DNA of 25,715 nt from a virus, in the IMG/VR virus record IMGVR_UViG_3300027754_000389, positions 1 through 25,715 of that record. The stretch is one strand, 5' to 3'. Made by a program: the position numbers and the translations under genes. Shown here one piece after another: positions 10,074 through 22,601 of this stretch. The notes beneath the pieces were generated by a model, which saw nothing but the letters and a program-made list of their open reading frames with translations, ran no database searches and was not told the origin of the DNA. Position 1 is the stretch's first letter, and every line of letters starts with the position of its first letter.

Positions 10074-10105
10074 ACTCTCTCCTCTTTTGGGGAGAGTTTT
10101 TTTTT
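10074..10105 (+). terminator. Intrinsic terminator after mazG, fused to a late promoter
   Basis: A 9-bp stem (10074-10082 with 10089-10097, one G-T pair), a TCTTTT loop and a nine-T run to 10105. The last T is also the first base of a TATAAATA box. Confidence 0.92.
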
Positions 10106-10112
10106 ATAAATA
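10105..10112 (+). promoter_or_regulatory. Late promoter TATAAATA upstream of the 10147 gene
   Basis: An exact T4-type late box formed at the end of the mazG terminator T-tract, 34 nt before the ATG at 10147. Confidence 0.75.
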
Positions 10113-10146: not shown

Positions 10147-10374
10147 ATGAAAACTTTTAAAATATTTTTAGAGAATGCAGCAGAAAATCTTGCAGCACTA
10201 AGAGCAAAAAGCGAAAATCGTAAACAAGAACTAATGCAACAAATTGCTACTCAAAGACAACAAAAAAAAGAAGATGAAGAATTAGAAAATACAATAAACA
10301 GAGAAATTGAAGAAAGAGAAAAAGCAAAAACAAATAAAAGAAAACCCACAAAATTAGAAGACAAAAAAAGATAA
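10147..10374 (+). CDS. Small charged coiled-coil protein with capsid-targeting-like N-terminus
   Basis: A 75-aa protein, not matched to a named family. It begins MKTFKIFLENA, which resembles the N-terminal capsid-targeting sequence of T4 internal proteins (MKTYQEFIAEA), although the residue at the expected gp21 cleavage point is Asn rather than Glu. The rest is an uninterrupted, highly charged Lys/Glu/Gln-rich helix ending in a basic tail. Composition and length are compatible with a head-core or packaged internal protein (inference). It is served by its own late promoter, and the next gene has another late box overlapping this stop region. It is the first of three neighbours with the same type of N-terminus. 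Confidence 0.72.
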   Translation: MKTFKIFLENAAENLAALRAKSENRKQELMQQIATQRQQKKEDEELENTINREIEEREKAKTNKRKPTKLEDKKR

Positions 10375-10382
10375 GATAAATA
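10375..10382 (+). promoter_or_regulatory. Late promoter GATAAATA upstream of the 10402 gene
   Basis: A NATAAATA match immediately after the stop of the 10147 gene, 19 nt before the ATG at 10402. A short inverted repeat (ACTAG 10383-10387, CTAGT 10393-10397) follows. Confidence 0.68.
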
Positions 10383-10401
10383 ACTAGAAAACCTAGTATA
10401 A

Positions 10402-11595
10402 ATGAAGACATTTGTCCAATTCATCAAAGAAGCCACAGAAACCCTTGCATCTACTGAAGCAAAGAATAGAGGTCTTGTGGGTGATGGACACGGGGATTGG
10501 TTTGATAAGCAAGGGAAGTTAATAGCAAAAACAGTTGGCGGAAAGTTAAAATATTTTGGACAAGGTGAGAAAAAACAACAACCAGAAGTATCAGTAAAAC
10601 AAAAAGTATCAACACAACAAGCAACACCTACAACACAACAAGGACAAGTAGGACAGCAGGAAACCCAAGAGGAGCAACCAAATGGGATTGTAATTTTACT
10701 TGGTAGATTTAATCCTCCATCCAAAAATCACGAAGCATTATTAGCAGCAGGTTATAATCAATCAATAAGAAAAAAATATGAATATCGTATCTATCCAAGT
10801 CGTATTCAGGATGGAGATTTAAATCCACTCAATCCACAATTAAAGATTTCATATATGAAATCTATGTTCTCCAAGTATGCAGATTATATTGTAGATAGTG
10901 ATAATATTAAAACTATTTTTGATGTTTTAAGTTCTGTTTATAATGATGGTTATACTGATGTAGTAATTGTAACAGGGCAAGATAGACTTGGAGAATTTCA
11001 AAGTTTAGCACATAAAGGTGAAGGTCAAAATTATCAGTTCAATAATATCGAAGTAGTTTCGTCTGGTGTAAAGGACCCTGATAGTGATGTAGAAACTGCT
11101 GGTTCTTCGTCAATGATGAGAACTGCTGCTGCACTTGGTGATTATGAAAAGTTTTCTGCTGGATTGCCACCATCTATGAAGATGGGCGAAAAACAAGAAA
11201 TGTTTAATACTTTATCAAAATCAATTAAGGTAACAGAAAATACACAACTTTGGAAAATTGCACCAGAATTGGATATTAGCGGATTGAGGCAAGATTATAA
11301 AAATAATGGTCTTTTTGATGTTGGAGCATTAGTCGAAAATCAAAATACTGGATTGATTGGAAGAATACTTCGTCGTGGTGCAAATCATTTAATTTGCGTA
11401 ACGAAAGAAGGTGTAATGTTTAAGAGTTGGTTAAAAGATTTGAGAGAAGTATATGAAGTTGGAACTTGCTCTTACCGAGCACACGCACAATCAATTACAC
11501 CAGGCCAACCAGTAGTTTCTTTTACGGATGTAGAGATTAAAGAAACAATACCAAAGAAAAATATAAATATCAATAAAGCAGCAAAAGTAAAATGA
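10402..11595 (+). CDS. Nucleotidylyltransferase-domain protein with capsid-targeting-like N-terminus
   Basis: A 397-aa protein in four parts. (1) The N-terminus MKTFVQFIKEA resembles the T4 capsid-targeting sequence, with IKE|A in the place of the gp21 cleavage site. (2) An HGDW segment (residues 30-33) is followed by a Gln-rich linker (about 57-93). (3) A nucleotidylyltransferase core has GRFNPPSKNHE (101-111), VTGQDRLGEF (190-199) and SSSMMR (235-240), the counterpart of the ISSTxIR loop of NMN/cytidylyltransferases. (4) The C-terminal domain contains SGLRQDY and a small beta-rich segment with GLIGRILRRG. In the usual HxGH signature the first His is replaced (SKNH), while His110 remains, so activity is uncertain. 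The substrate is unknown; NMN or a cytidylyl acceptor are possibilities. Late promoter upstream; ATGA overlap with the next gene. Confidence 0.85.
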   Translation: MKTFVQFIKEATETLASTEAKNRGLVGDGHGDWFDKQGKLIAKTVGGKLKYFGQGEKKQQPEVSVKQKVSTQQATPTTQQGQVGQQETQEEQPNGIVILLGRFNPPSKNHEALLAAGYNQSIRKKYEYRIYPSRIQDGDLNPLNPQLKISYMKSMFSKYADYIVDSDNIKTIFDVLSSVYNDGYTDVVIVTGQDRLGEFQSLAHKGEGQNYQFNNIEVVSSGVKDPDSDVETAGSSSMMRTAAALGDYEKFSAGLPPSMKMGEKQEMFNTLSKSIKVTENTQLWKIAPELDISGLRQDYKNNGLFDVGALVENQNTGLIGRILRRGANHLICVTKEGVMFKSWLKDLREVYEVGTCSYRAHAQSITPGQPVVSFTDVEIKETIPKKNININKAAKVK

Positions 11596-12671
11596 GAACT
11601 TGGAAGGAAGTTATACAAGAAGCAAGTGCTACTGAAATTAAAAGAGCAGGAGAAGCAGCATTACGAGATGAAAGAAATAAAAATAAAGCAGAAAAAATAA
11701 CAAAAGGCAAATCTTCTTATCAGGATTATTTGGAAAAACAACTTGCATTTAAAAAGGACAAATACGAAGCACAAAAAAAAGCACAAATTGAAAGAGCGAA
11801 AGAAAAAAATGTCCAAGGACCTTTAGATCAAGCAAAGGCGTCACTTAAAGGAATTCAAACCCAAACTATTTCGGACAAAGATAAGGAAGGCACGGCATAT
11901 TCTAAACTTATGGGAAATGTTGGTTCTACTGCTGTTGGAGTTGGTGGTGCTGTATTTCACGGTATAAGAGCATTAGCAGCAAGAAAAAAAGCAGAAACAA
12001 AAGCAAAGGAGAAACAACAAGAAAAAAGAGAAAGAAAAGCAGCTGGAAGACCACCTGGAAAAACTGAAAAAAAAGAAAATCCTTCACCCGAAGCACCAAC
12101 TGCTAAAACAGAAAAATCACAAGAACAACCAAAATTACTTGTTCCATCTACAAAAAGACTTCCTCCATCTGGAGGTACTGGTGGTCGTGGTGCTAAAAAG
12201 CAAACACTTGGACAAAGAGCAAGAAATAATCCAGCAATTAAAGCAGGATTAATTACTCAACGTATGGAAAGTTATTCTAATTGGAGAGAAGAACTTTTAA
12301 TTGAAGTAGACGAAAAAGATAAAGGAAAAAAAGAAAAAATTATAGATGTGATGAAAGGAAAAAATACAATCATTATCAATCCAGAAGATAAAAAGGTAAA
12401 TGAAGAATCTGCTGCTTGGCAAAGAAAGGAGGGAAAGAATCCAGAAGGTGGATTAAATGCAAAAGGAATTGCGTCTTATCGTAAAGAAAATCCTGGTTCA
12501 AAACTCTCTCTTGCTGTGACTACTCCACCATCAAAACTTAAAAAAGGTAGTAAAGCAGCAAATCGTAGAAAGTCTTTTTGTGCTCGTATGGGAGGAATGC
12601 CTGGACCTATGAAAGACGAAAAAGGTCGCCCAACCAGAAAGGCATTAGCATTAAGAAAGTGGAATTGTTAA
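11592..12671 (+). CDS. Basic modular virion-type protein with DUF6321-like C-terminus
   Basis: A 359-aa, Lys-rich protein. The N-terminus MRTWKEVIQEA again resembles a T4 capsid-targeting sequence with an IQE|A cleavage-like site. The next 100 residues are charged helix; residues about 110-128 are a Gly/Ala-rich hydrophobic patch; then comes a Pro/Lys/Glu-rich linker. A middle element, SYSNWREELLIEVDE, leads to KNTIIINPE. The last 86 residues (274-359) form a compact basic module: AWQRKEGKNPEGGLNAKG, then KSFCARMGG and a closing RKALALRKWNC. I recall this module as a phage domain of unknown function (DUF6321-like). A DNA-associated internal head protein fits the charge and the late promoter of its operon, but this is inference. 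Confidence 0.78.
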   Translation: MRTWKEVIQEASATEIKRAGEAALRDERNKNKAEKITKGKSSYQDYLEKQLAFKKDKYEAQKKAQIERAKEKNVQGPLDQAKASLKGIQTQTISDKDKEGTAYSKLMGNVGSTAVGVGGAVFHGIRALAARKKAETKAKEKQQEKRERKAAGRPPGKTEKKENPSPEAPTAKTEKSQEQPKLLVPSTKRLPPSGGTGGRGAKKQTLGQRARNNPAIKAGLITQRMESYSNWREELLIEVDEKDKGKKEKIIDVMKGKNTIIINPEDKKVNEESAAWQRKEGKNPEGGLNAKGIASYRKENPGSKLSLAVTTPPSKLKKGSKAANRRKSFCARMGGMPGPMKDEKGRPTRKALALRKWNC

Positions 12672-12986: not shown

Positions 12987-13013
12987 TGGGGAGTAAATAA
13001 CTCCCCATTTTTT
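12987..13013 (+). terminator. Intrinsic terminator fused to a late promoter
   Basis: An 8-bp stem (12987-12994 TGGGGAGT with 13000-13007 ACTCCCCA), a 5-nt loop and a six-T run (13008-13013). The last T begins the next TATAAATA box. Confidence 0.92.
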
Positions 13014-13020
13014 ATAAATA
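13013..13020 (+). promoter_or_regulatory. Late promoter TATAAATA upstream of the 13049 gene
   Basis: An exact late box directly at the end of the terminator T-tract, 28 nt before the ATG at 13049. Confidence 0.78.
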
Positions 13021-19615: not shown

Positions 19616-19638
19616 GGGGGCATATGCCCCCTTTTTTT
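19616..19638 (+). terminator. Intrinsic terminator after nrdB, fused to a late promoter
   Basis: A perfect palindrome, GGGGGCAT/ATGCCCCC (19616-19631), followed by seven Ts (19632-19638). The last T begins a TATAAATA box. Confidence 0.9.
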
Positions 19639-19645
19639 ATAAATA
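19638..19645 (+). promoter_or_regulatory. Late promoter TATAAATA upstream of the 19667 gene
   Basis: An exact late box at the end of the nrdB terminator T-tract, 21 nt before the ATG at 19667. Confidence 0.75.
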
Positions 19646-19666: not shown

Positions 19667-21100
19667 ATGTCTAATTTTTACAAAAAAGAAAACATAAATG
19701 AAGGTTTGAGTTTTGAAATAAAACCGTCCAGAGGAATTGGAGCATTAACACCTGACGCAGCTCAACAACTAGGACCAAAAGCAGTTGAACTACAAAAGAA
19801 AAAAGCAGCAGAAGTAGATCTTCCTAACAAGTCGGGCGTTAAACTTGCAAATTCATATAAACCGAAAGGAAAAATAGTAAAAGAAGCACACTACAATCCT
19901 ACGACTGGAAAAATTCAAGCAGAAAAACCATCAGAAGAAGAAATTAATACGTTGGCAAAAAAAGCAGCAGCATCTGGACCAAAGAAAAGAAAACCAGTTG
20001 GTTCAGTTCGTAAAAATAGTGCGACCTTCAAACCATCATCACCAGAGCAAGCAAAGGCGGATATGAAAAGTTGGAATGATTATTGGAGTGGAAGTGAAAC
20101 AATTGATGTAGGTGCTGATGCTGGTTCTACTATTAGCGATTTCGTCCATTCAAAGAGCAAAACATTCAAGGGTGATAGTACGAAGCAAAGAATTAAGAGA
20201 GCACTTGGTGCTTATTATGGAGCACAGAAAGAAGAAATAGAAAATAGTTATGAGTGTGTGATAGAAGCACTTGTAGAATATGGATTTGCCGAAGATGCCG
20301 AAACTGCAAACGATATGATTATTGGATTAAGTGAAGGTTTTATTGGTATGATATTTGAAGAATATTTGGAAGAGAAAGCAAGAGGCACTAGACCAAAAAC
20401 AACTGCACACGCATATGATATGGACGAAACTTTGTTTGGTCACGACCATTCAAAGGTGAATGTCCACGTTCATAATGAAAAAGGAGAGAGAACTCAAAGT
20501 TTGAGTAATCAAGAATTCAATACTCATAAACTTCCAAAGGGTCATTCTTATAACTTTGATGAGTTTAGAAGTTCAAAGGTTTTTGAAAAGTCAGCAAAAC
20601 CTTTGAAAAAAATGATTAAGCATTTGAATAAACAAAAAGCACGAGGATATGATACTCATATTGTAACGGCTCGTAGTGATATGGACGATCAACCTGCATT
20701 TGCAAAACATCTTTCTAAGTATGGTATTAATATCAATCCAGGAGAAAACGGTAAAGGACATACTCACGTTCATCGTACAGGTAATCTTGAAGGTAGTGAT
20801 GTTGGAGTAAAGAAGAAAGATACACTTCAAGGTTTATCACAAAAACACGGATATAAGAAAATTCATATGTATGATGATGCTGCAAAGGTCCATAAGGCGG
20901 TTCAAAACACACCAGGAGTTGAGGTCAAAACTCATATGGTAAAACCAAGAGGGAAGTCAGGTGAAGTGCGACCACGGTCGTTTAGAGCAACCGAAACACA
21001 AAAAGAAGAATATTATATTGATTTTGGAATTAATAATATACAAGAAGTGAAAGAAATAGACATTACGCCTTATGAATACTGGAAAGAAAATATAAGATAA
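19667..21100 (+). CDS. Virion-type modular protein with HAD phosphatase domain
   Basis: A 477-aa protein. Residues 1-190 are low-complexity and basic. Residues about 194-233 form a helical module (YECVIEALVEYGFAEDAETA, then MIIGLSEGFIG) that recurs at the C-terminus of the next gene product. Residues 245-425 look like a HAD-superfamily hydrolase: motif I AYDMDET (D251, D253), motif II VTAR (T334) and the late acidic motif MYDDAAK (D403, D404). It is His-rich around 259-269 and 365-369. HAD domains of this sort include 3'-phosphatases such as the PseT/PNK phosphatase, but no kinase domain is present and the substrate is unknown. The late promoter and shared module suggest a packaged or virion-associated enzyme (inference). 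Confidence 0.82.
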   Translation: MSNFYKKENINEGLSFEIKPSRGIGALTPDAAQQLGPKAVELQKKKAAEVDLPNKSGVKLANSYKPKGKIVKEAHYNPTTGKIQAEKPSEEEINTLAKKAAASGPKKRKPVGSVRKNSATFKPSSPEQAKADMKSWNDYWSGSETIDVGADAGSTISDFVHSKSKTFKGDSTKQRIKRALGAYYGAQKEEIENSYECVIEALVEYGFAEDAETANDMIIGLSEGFIGMIFEEYLEEKARGTRPKTTAHAYDMDETLFGHDHSKVNVHVHNEKGERTQSLSNQEFNTHKLPKGHSYNFDEFRSSKVFEKSAKPLKKMIKHLNKQKARGYDTHIVTARSDMDDQPAFAKHLSKYGININPGENGKGHTHVHRTGNLEGSDVGVKKKDTLQGLSQKHGYKKIHMYDDAAKVHKAVQNTPGVEVKTHMVKPRGKSGEVRPRSFRATETQKEEYYIDFGINNIQEVKEIDITPYEYWKENIR

Positions 21101-21128: not shown

Positions 21129-22601
21129 ATGAAGCAAGAGAATTTAGACGAGCTTAAAAATATCTACTTAGGTTTGGTGACTGGTGGGGAAGGACCGGAA
21201 GTGTTGAGTGAGGCACCTACTCAATTTGCTAAAGATTTACAGAATAATATAAGAGATACGGCAGCTCAAAAAACAGTTAATAAAGCTCTTAGTGGAGGAC
21301 TAAAACCTGCTGCAACACCTACAGTTCCGAGACCTGCTGCACCTACTCAATTTGCTAAAGATTTGCAGAATAATATAAGAGATACGGCAGCTCAAAAAAC
21401 AGTTAATAAAGCTCTTAGTGGAGGACTAAAACCTGCTGCAACACTACCAGCAAAAAAAGTTGGTCCTAAGATTGTAGGTCCTAAGATTGTAGGTCCTGGT
21501 GGTGATAATAGTGGAGGAACACCAGCAGGACAAGCACCAAAACCTGCTGCTCCAAGACCAGCAGCAGCACCTACAAAACCAATGGGTGGCGCTCCTATGG
21601 ACCAGTTTGCAAGAGCAAATCCAACTCTTGCCGCCAAAGTAAAACCAGGGCAATCTGGATATGATACTATCAACACAAGATTATCTGCCGATAACGATAG
21701 AGGACCAAGCACACCAACACCAGCAGCAGAACCTTCTGGTGAAACTGATAGGCTCAAAAAGGCACTTGACATCAAAAAGTCAGATGTGACCTCTTCTTAT
21801 GAATGGTCTTCAGTAAAAACTCTAAAGAATATTGCAGATGCATATTCTAGTGTTTATGAGAAGAAAGAATATGAAACATCCAGAGATAAAGACAAAGATG
21901 GTGATAATGACTTTGCTGATAATATGATTGCTCGAATGGTTGCTTCTGGTATGTCCCGTGAAGAAGCAATTAAGAAAGTAAAGAATAAGTCTTATAATGA
22001 AGAAATTGAGTATATTGAAGAAAGAGACGAAGGCAAACCAGGTTTAATGTTTAAGAAGATTGCTGCAAAAGCAGCAAAGAAATATGGTTCAAAAGAAGCA
22101 GGCAATAGAGTTGCTGGAGCAATTCGTAAGAAAGTTCTTGCAAATGAAGCAACTGCGATGGCTAAGAGAGGTCTTGATGAACCTGCAATTCGTAATAAGA
22201 TTGCATCAACAACTCGTGGCGATGAGAGTGCAGACAAAGCAACTGCACTAGCAGATCGTGAAACTTATGGTGATAATAAAAAGAAAGAAGGTAGAGAGAA
22301 ACTTGCAAGAAAGCAAAGAGGCGATTTCCGTGATACGACTTCTTCAAATCCTGGACTTCACGGATATGCATACAAAGCAACAACCGATGCTGATAAAGAA
22401 AAGCAGGCAGCAAGAGGAAAACAAAGAGGTGTCCTAACTCCTAATGAAAAGAAGACCCTGAATAGAGAAGAAGTTCATATCTATGATACTATTATATCAC
22501 ACTTACTTGAATATGGTTTCGCAGATACAGAAGAAGGTGCAGATGTGATTATTGAAAATATGAGCCAATCTTGGATTAAACAAATCCTAAGTGAAGATTG
22601 A
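21129..22601 (+). CDS. Modular virion-type protein with internal 42-residue repeat
   Basis: A 490-aa protein, not matched to a named family. The N-terminal part (residues 29-105) contains a near-exact tandem duplication starting APTQFAKDLQNNIRDTAAQ, with a 42-residue period. A Pro/Ala/Gly-rich linker with VGPKI repeats follows. Residues 253-264 read DKDKDGDNDFAD, an EF-hand or dockerin-like acidic loop, followed by MIARMVASGMSREEAIKKV. The middle is basic and helical (KIAAKAAKKYG, RVAGAIRKKV). The C-terminal about 40 residues (YDTIISHLLEYGFADTEEGA, then SQSWIKQIL) repeat the module seen in the preceding gene product. A structural or packaged role is likely from the late promoter and composition, but unproven. 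Confidence 0.78.
   Translation: MKQENLDELKNIYLGLVTGGEGPEVLSEAPTQFAKDLQNNIRDTAAQKTVNKALSGGLKPAATPTVPRPAAPTQFAKDLQNNIRDTAAQKTVNKALSGGLKPAATLPAKKVGPKIVGPKIVGPGGDNSGGTPAGQAPKPAAPRPAAAPTKPMGGAPMDQFARANPTLAAKVKPGQSGYDTINTRLSADNDRGPSTPTPAAEPSGETDRLKKALDIKKSDVTSSYEWSSVKTLKNIADAYSSVYEKKEYETSRDKDKDGDNDFADNMIARMVASGMSREEAIKKVKNKSYNEEIEYIEERDEGKPGLMFKKIAAKAAKKYGSKEAGNRVAGAIRKKVLANEATAMAKRGLDEPAIRNKIASTTRGDESADKATALADRETYGDNKKKEGREKLARKQRGDFRDTTSSNPGLHGYAYKATTDADKEKQAARGKQRGVLTPNEKKTLNREEVHIYDTIISHLLEYGFADTEEGADVIIENMSQSWIKQILSED
21213..21444 (+). repeat. Direct repeat, two 106-bp copies with period 126 bp
   Basis: Copies at 21213-21318 and 21339-21444 differ at one base (A21239 versus G21365, a silent Leu codon change). 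They are separated by 20 nt encoding a Pro-rich linker. The near identity at the DNA level points to a recent in-frame duplication. Confidence 0.93.
21462..21497 (+). repeat. 15-bp tandem repeat encoding VGPKI
   Basis: GGTCCTAAGATTGTA occurs at 21462-21476 and 21477-21491, followed by a partial third copy (GGTCCT, 21492-21497). It lies in the Pro/Gly linker of the 21129 gene. Confidence 0.9.

Follow-up and report, generated by a model that had tools for sequence, protein, structure and literature searches.

Putative T4-type internal head proteins, one with a nucleotidylyltransferase fold, encoded by a T4-like cyanophage fragment

With the ADP-ribosyltransferase Alt, bacteriophage T4 packages an enzyme into its head, which is processed by the protease gp21 and ejected. 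For the T4 internal protein IPIII it was demonstrated by truncation that the first ten residues are enough for packaging; within this capsid targeting sequence (CTS), positions 4 and 7 are important for targeting and positions 8 and 10 for processing, an Asp at position 10 allows targeting and blocks cutting, and gp21 cleaves after [LI]xE (PMC9026906). The same review suggested that the CTS may allow T4-like phages to package various proteins. Cyanophages were reported to lack alt (PMC2984593). In this work three genes in a row, termed P1, P2 and P3 and flanked by mazG and a primase gene, were analyzed on a virus record from IMG/VR (IMGVR_UViG_3300027754_000389), which carries T4-like cyanophage genes and whose entire 25,715 bases are referred to as the window. 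We consider it likely that P1 to P3 belong inside the head of a T4-like cyanophage and carry an N-terminal T4-type CTS; P2 and P3 would be cleaved, and the cargo would be ejected into the host.

Direct observations are the tag itself, its conservation at particular positions, the modular way in which it is joined to unrelated cargo, and the finding of gp21 together with gp23 in related records. An earlier note on this DNA had proposed a packaged set of internal proteins including an enzyme. As far as packaging is concerned this is supported for P2 and P3, whereas the proposed cleavage should not be extended to P1. Packaging of P2 by a T4-type CTS is strongly supported, because tagged orthologues occur in the virions of three phages, the residues needed in T4 are conserved and control patterns are rare. 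For P3 it is well supported: the family changes fast and yet retains the tag, and phage S-CREM2 has a virion protein with the same C-terminal domain.

The N-terminal tag and its conservation

The three open reading frames (ORFs) and their tags are the following (a slash marks a predicted cut):
10147-10374, plus strand: P1, 75 amino acids, charged, rich in Lys and Glu, start MKTFKIFLENA; F4, F7 and L8 are present, N at position 10
10147-10179, plus strand: CTS-like segment of P1 (residues 1-11), predicted to be targeted and not cut at residue 10
10402-11595, plus strand: P2, 397 amino acids, composed of CTS, DGHG mini-domain, disordered linker, nucleotidylyltransferase domain (phrog_395) and small beta domain
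10402-10434, plus strand: CTS of P2, MKTFVQFIKEA, predicted cut after E10 (IKE/A)
11592-12671, plus strand: P3, 359 amino acids, basic, composed of a Trp-type CTS, a basic linker and a C-terminal DUF6321 domain
11592-11624, plus strand: CTS of P3, MRTWKEVIQEA, predicted cut after E10 (IQE/A)

All three ORFs exist with the T4-like starts described in the earlier note. Its range of 10147-11630 takes in just the N-terminus of P3, which runs to 12671. The likeness to T4 is correct as well, since IPII and IPIII indeed start with MKTYQEFIAEA, and an IxE/A site is present in two of the three proteins, P1 having LEN instead. From the T4 rules we built the regular expression M..[FYW]..[FYWILMV][ILMF].[END] and applied it to the ATG starts of all window ORFs of at least 40 amino acids. 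It matches exactly three of 247 starts, namely P1, P2 and P3, in every case at the first ATG. A strict form (position 4 aromatic, 7 hydrophobic, 8 I/L/M, 10 E) has a chance expectation of about 4e-4 per protein and returned only IPII and IPIII from a T4 control stretch of 104 ORFs. The hydrophobic residues at positions 4 and 7 (F4/F7 in P1 and P2, W4/V7 in P3) are conserved among relatives. As judged from the sequence, P2 and P3 agree with the T4 CTS in every feature that can be tested. A chance origin of the tags was ruled out by the whole-window count, the composition expectation, the T4 control and the two control patterns given below.

From IMG/VR, 80 loci related to P2 were obtained, which condense to 26 at 90% identity; F4, F7 and E10 are found in 25 of them, and the one exception is shifted by an extra Met. 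This set (L001-L080) was picked with peptides along the whole of P2 and a further set was selected for the tag itself. Because both are open to search-selection bias, conservation was re-measured on loci chosen anew by the catalytic motif R[FYM]NPP[TSH]x[GN]H only. The tag was still present in 72 of 79 NMNAT loci, by which search-selection bias was rejected as the source of the conservation; most of the remaining loci come close to the pattern, as with MNFVDFIKEA and MKNLFQFLSEA. Of 65 representatives, 61 have F4, 64 have F7, 61 have E10 and 51 have A11, and 64 carry one of L, I, F or V at position 8. Positions 5, 6 and 9, by contrast, are highly variable. Judging by these counts, the kept positions are the residue pattern required by T4 genetics.

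The DNA pattern for MK-x-F-xx-F-[LIFV]-x-EA matched at least 120 stretches in IMG/VR, 80 of which became loci; among the matches listed, 79 of 81 open ORFs of at least 40 amino acids. When the second Phe was moved from position 7 to 6, 12 stretches were found, and the exchange of E10 for Lys gave 42, with 15 in ORFs of that length. Most tagged proteins are P2-like and the others diverse. Tagged cargo comprises DUF6321 in a protein of 95 residues with little beyond tag and domain (L124, L156), a GNAT acetyltransferase and a weakly RNA 2'-phosphotransferase-like protein encoded by two adjacent ORFs (L103:3736-4529), a lytic transglycosylase (L140), a nucleotidase-like protein of the HAD type (L120), a protein of the polynucleotide kinase family (L119) and an NMNAT fused to a P-loop kinase (L095).

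The prohead protease gp21 (PF03420) and the capsid protein gp23 (PF07068) occur together in the same seven of 16 tag-bearing records; neither is present in the other nine, which are possibly fragments and in which a search for an HK97-type S78 protease was negative. [LI]xE sites are found in cyanophage gp23 and gp22 where T4-type cleavage is expected, with LxE/A or LxE/T in gp23, for example LTE/APTQ in that of S-CREM2, and many in gp22.

Tagged proteins in virions and the proposed packaging route

P2 orthologues are listed for purified virions of S-SM1 (PMC3037559), S-SCSM1 (ORF91; PMC9602691) and S-CREM2 (ORF154; PMC10665884), and their N-termini read MKKFSAFLNEA, MKSFLQFLKEA and MKNFSSFLTEA, respectively. 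No targeting or processing signal is mentioned in the passages of these papers on the virion NMNATs. The virion table of S-CREM2 is complete with coordinates and its 219 proteins served as a test set. The strict T4 expression fits three of them (0.09 expected), and mass spectrometry found each of these in virions. Within the 193 proteins outside the structural and lysis categories this gives a Fisher p of 0.0022. The three are ORF6, with a match to the S-adenosylmethionine lyase family (PF23780), the kinase-like ORF14 and the P2 relative ORF154. The remaining virion enzyme outside the structural and lysis groups, ORF12, which is annotated as Cas9, carries RFASFMAEA within residues 17-27. A broad expression admitting this tag gives p=3e-5; it was devised after the sequence had been seen and is not our main test. 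ORF12 (L082:7704-10313) has no Pfam match and a KTFRDFLN segment at its C-terminus. In S-SCSM1 two annotated proteins fit the strict tag, and the NMNAT was detected in virions. The small virion protein ORF93 of the same phage (L085:21627-21836) carries a tag-like RTFKEFLEYIE at its C-terminus, a hint of C-terminal tags.

Based on the T4 model, the first 10-11 residues of P1, P2 and P3 would act as a T4-type CTS. Late in infection, residues 4 and 7 (and 8) would dock the protein on the prohead core, by which it would be enclosed by the shell. A gp21-type prohead protease would then cut P2 and P3 after E10 ([IL]xE/A) and free the mature cargo inside the head, while P1, with docking residues and no E10, would be packaged with an intact tag. 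As in T4, the cargo would be released from the head along with the DNA and act in the new host. There P2 might work as an NMNAT-fold nucleotidylyltransferase, probably on nicotinamide adenine dinucleotide (NAD) or another nucleotide and perhaps against an NAD-depleting defence, and P3 might enter as a basic DUF6321 protein.

Several observations weigh against this route. In S-SCSM1 the strict-tag protein ORF30 (106 amino acids, MKTFKQFMSES) was not detected in virions, and the NMNAT neighbours ORFs 89, 90, 92, 93 and 97 were detected without an N-terminal tag; other routes into the particle therefore exist. The NMNAT of S-CBWM1 was reported in virions and has no tag, the virion detection of the S-CREM2 NMNAT amounts to three peptides, the virion evidence covers P2 orthologues and a DUF6321 protein, and the nucleotide-binding motif of P2 is altered (SKNH), which makes its enzymatic activity uncertain. 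Virion mass spectrometry cannot separate inside from outside, and several of the untagged neighbours labelled as virion proteins include tail-fibre-like genes, so that the motif might be a docking tag for the tail, the neck or the outer capsid. We hold this to be improbable, as the conserved positions are those which send T4 IPIII into the head, combined with the [IL]xE/A site of a head protease, as the exchange of E10 for Lys lowers the number of matches and shifts most of them to very short ORFs, and as the cargo consists of enzymes. It is similarly improbable that the detected proteins are contaminations by abundant late proteins and that the motif serves another end, for example binding to membranes or a replication complex. 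Co-purification is raised as a possibility by the proteome authors themselves (PMC10665884, PMC9602691) and would agree with the low NMNAT peptide counts in S-CREM2. However, the finding was made in three phages independently, every strict-tag protein of S-CREM2 was detected, the only DNA-metabolism protein in its virion table is the tag-bearing ORF12, and the motif equals the T4 CTS residue by residue.

The alternative that P1 merely resembles a CTS protein, being either an unrelated small protein in its own right or a degenerate copy with a start that stems from a duplication and has fallen out of use, is a real possibility, albeit not the one we favour. Position 10 is N or D in all relatives seen and never E, P1 is missing from most NMNAT loci, and it had no significant match in Pfam or PHROG. 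Yet the relatives retain the docking residues in MKTF[KQ]IFLE[ND] while the body diverges, and in T4 an Asp at position 10 stops cutting and not targeting (PMC9026906). Because the docking residues are present, position 10 is N or D and D10 blocks cutting only, P1 is predicted to be packaged with its tag kept; by analogy it may be targeted and uncleaved. P1 is not classed as a cleaved CTS protein, and the cleavage predicted for P2 and P3 should not be extended to it.

Cargo domains and gene surroundings

Within P2 and P3 the following elements were assigned behind the tag:
10471-10557, plus strand: P2 mini-domain GLVGDGHGDWFDKQGKLIAKTVGGKLKYF, residues 24-52 (phrog_3561), which recurs in S-CREM2 ORF12 and ORF14
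10681-11226, plus strand: P2 catalytic domain with NaMN/phosphopantetheine adenylyltransferase fold, GRFNPP-SKNH in place of (T/H)xGH, and GSSSMMR
12279-12305, plus strand: internal NWREELLIE motif of P3 with LxE, speculatively a second protease site or targeting element
12432-12662, plus strand: DUF6321 domain of P3 (PF19846, E 4.5e-23; 82.1 bits versus a curated cut-off of 28.5)

The nucleotidylyltransferase domain of P2 matches phrog_395 with E 1e-76. An AlphaFold model based on 46 sequences (mean pLDDT 76) consists of a low-confidence helix at residues 4-11, a second helix, a small beta module at about 24-52, a disordered linker at 55-89, a well-predicted alpha/beta domain and a small terminal beta domain. 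With Foldseek, the core matches NaMNAT and PPAT structures (probability 1.00, E 7e-6); a sequence search of solved structures returned no match for P2 or P3. The GLVGDGHGDWFDKQGKLIAKTVGGKLKYF beta module is also found in ORF12 (BLAST E 3e-9) and ORF14 of S-CREM2, which are otherwise unrelated and are both tagged and virion-detected; tag and module therefore seem to travel together. At the (T/H)xGH site, P2 and 56 of the 80 nearest loci have SKNH and four have SKLH, whereas the canonical motif occurs in more distant relatives. The retention of SKNH or SKLH in 60 of 80 loci suggests changed chemistry rather than decay. Because SKNH replaces (T/H)xGH, we do not claim that P2 makes NAD, nor is it filed as a proven NMNAT. 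Phages are known to rebuild NAD in conflicts with NAD-depleting defence (PMC12774641), and if P2 made NAD, a role against such defence would be attractive. Tagged NMNATs of about 427 amino acids were observed at loci L095, L105, L110 and L151, the first of which is fused to the P-loop kinase domain and resembles bacterial NadR.

For the P3 type of tag, the pattern M[KR]-x-W-x-E-[ILV]-I-x-EA returned 55 stretches, nearly all from one modular family, in which complete proteins span 353-675 amino acids. Its start motif does not change, in contrast to the linkers and to the C-terminal ends, of which there are at least three types. DUF6321 also occurs in S-CREM2 ORF137, a virion-detected protein. 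An internal [NS]WREE..LxE motif, which holds a possible gp21 site, is common to proteins of the P3 family (window 12279-12305; L384; S-CREM2 ORF155, L081:25492-26013).

Upstream of the three genes the following signals were found:
10074-10104, plus strand: hairpin with T-run, resembling an intrinsic terminator, directly before the late-promoter box of P1
10105-10112, plus strand: T4-late-type box TATAAATA, 42 nucleotides before the ATG of P1
10375-10382, plus strand: imperfect late box GATAAATA, upstream of P2
11562-11569, plus strand: box TATAAATA, 30 nucleotides before the ATG of P3, inside the end of P2

The window contains nine TATAAATA boxes versus 3.7 expected. The claim that all three genes lie downstream of late promoters is partly right: a TATAAATA box precedes P1 and P3, and P2 has just the imperfect GATAAATA. 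T-runs lead directly into TATAAATA boxes 29-42 nucleotides before genes at 10089-10112, where a clear hairpin precedes, at 13005-13020 and at 19630-19645. At these sites terminator and late promoter appear to be fused.

Translations and matches to annotated cyanophages identified genes for clamp loader, regA, hsp20, DNA polymerase, UvsX, gp41 helicase, MazG, primase, nrdA and nrdB in the window, which is a fragment and does not include the head module gp21-23. An ORF at 19667-21100 encodes a HAD/polynucleotide-kinase-like domain (phrog_415), a family that also includes the CTS-tagged protein of locus L119. A 490-amino-acid ORF at 21129-22601 has a tandem APTQFAKDLQNNIRDTAAQKTVNKALSGGLKPAAT repeat and, near its start, VLSE/APTQ, which closely resembles the predicted gp23 cleavage site LTE/APTQ of S-CREM2.

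Meaning and comparison with known systems

The principle of the T4 CTS is known, and the enzyme type of P2 had been described from cyanophage particles before, with no explanation of its routing. No paper linking a CTS to cyanophages was found in the literature searched, which is weak evidence given that most subscription journals lie outside its coverage. The tag offers a simple explanation for the recurrence of NMNAT, S-adenosylmethionine lyase and kinase in purified cyanophage particles, and with the sequence rule the proteins brought into host cells by an abundant group of aquatic phages can be predicted from their DNA alone. If ejection is true, metabolic takeover and counter-defence by cyanophages would start with packaged enzymes ahead of gene expression. 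We see roughly even chances for a further-reaching proposal, that T4-type environmental phages possess a general and modular system for the delivery of proteins. In this system one short tag, often combined with the DGHG mini-domain, would be placed on many unrelated cargos, which would come into the host together with the DNA and be active ahead of all phage gene expression, for instance to counter NAD-depleting or restriction defences. The cargos would be NMNAT, NadR-like NMNAT-kinase, S-adenosylmethionine lyase, protein kinase, Cas9-annotated nuclease, GNAT acetyltransferase, RNA 2'-phosphotransferase-like protein, HAD nucleotidase, lytic transglycosylase and DUF6321.

Compared with described systems, the head propeptides of the giant phages phiKZ and SPN3US are likewise removed after Glu by a gp21-related protease and are mostly much longer than the tags of P1 to P3 (PMC5694885). 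Alt of T4 differs from P2 in that P2 has another enzyme fold. The NMNATs/cytidylyltransferases of cyanophage virions (T4-GC190; S-SCSM1 ORF91; S-CREM2 ORF154) form the family to which P2 belongs (phrog_395), with the same tag in the same place, but the clade of the window has SKNH instead of (T/H)xGH. With IPI, IPII and IPIII of T4 the proteins share an N-terminal tag of 10-11 residues with hydrophobic positions 4 and 7 and I/L at position 8, E10 and A11 in the case of P2 and P3, the presence of several tagged genes per genome, and T4-type gp21 and gp23 in related records. In contrast to the T4 proteins, enzymes are found as cargo, many tagged NMNATs carry the extra DGHG mini-domain and linker, the P3 family has Trp at position 4 and Val/Ile at position 7, and P1 has N/D at position 10. 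The bodies of P1 to P3 have no detected relation to the T4 internal proteins; the tags alone are alike.

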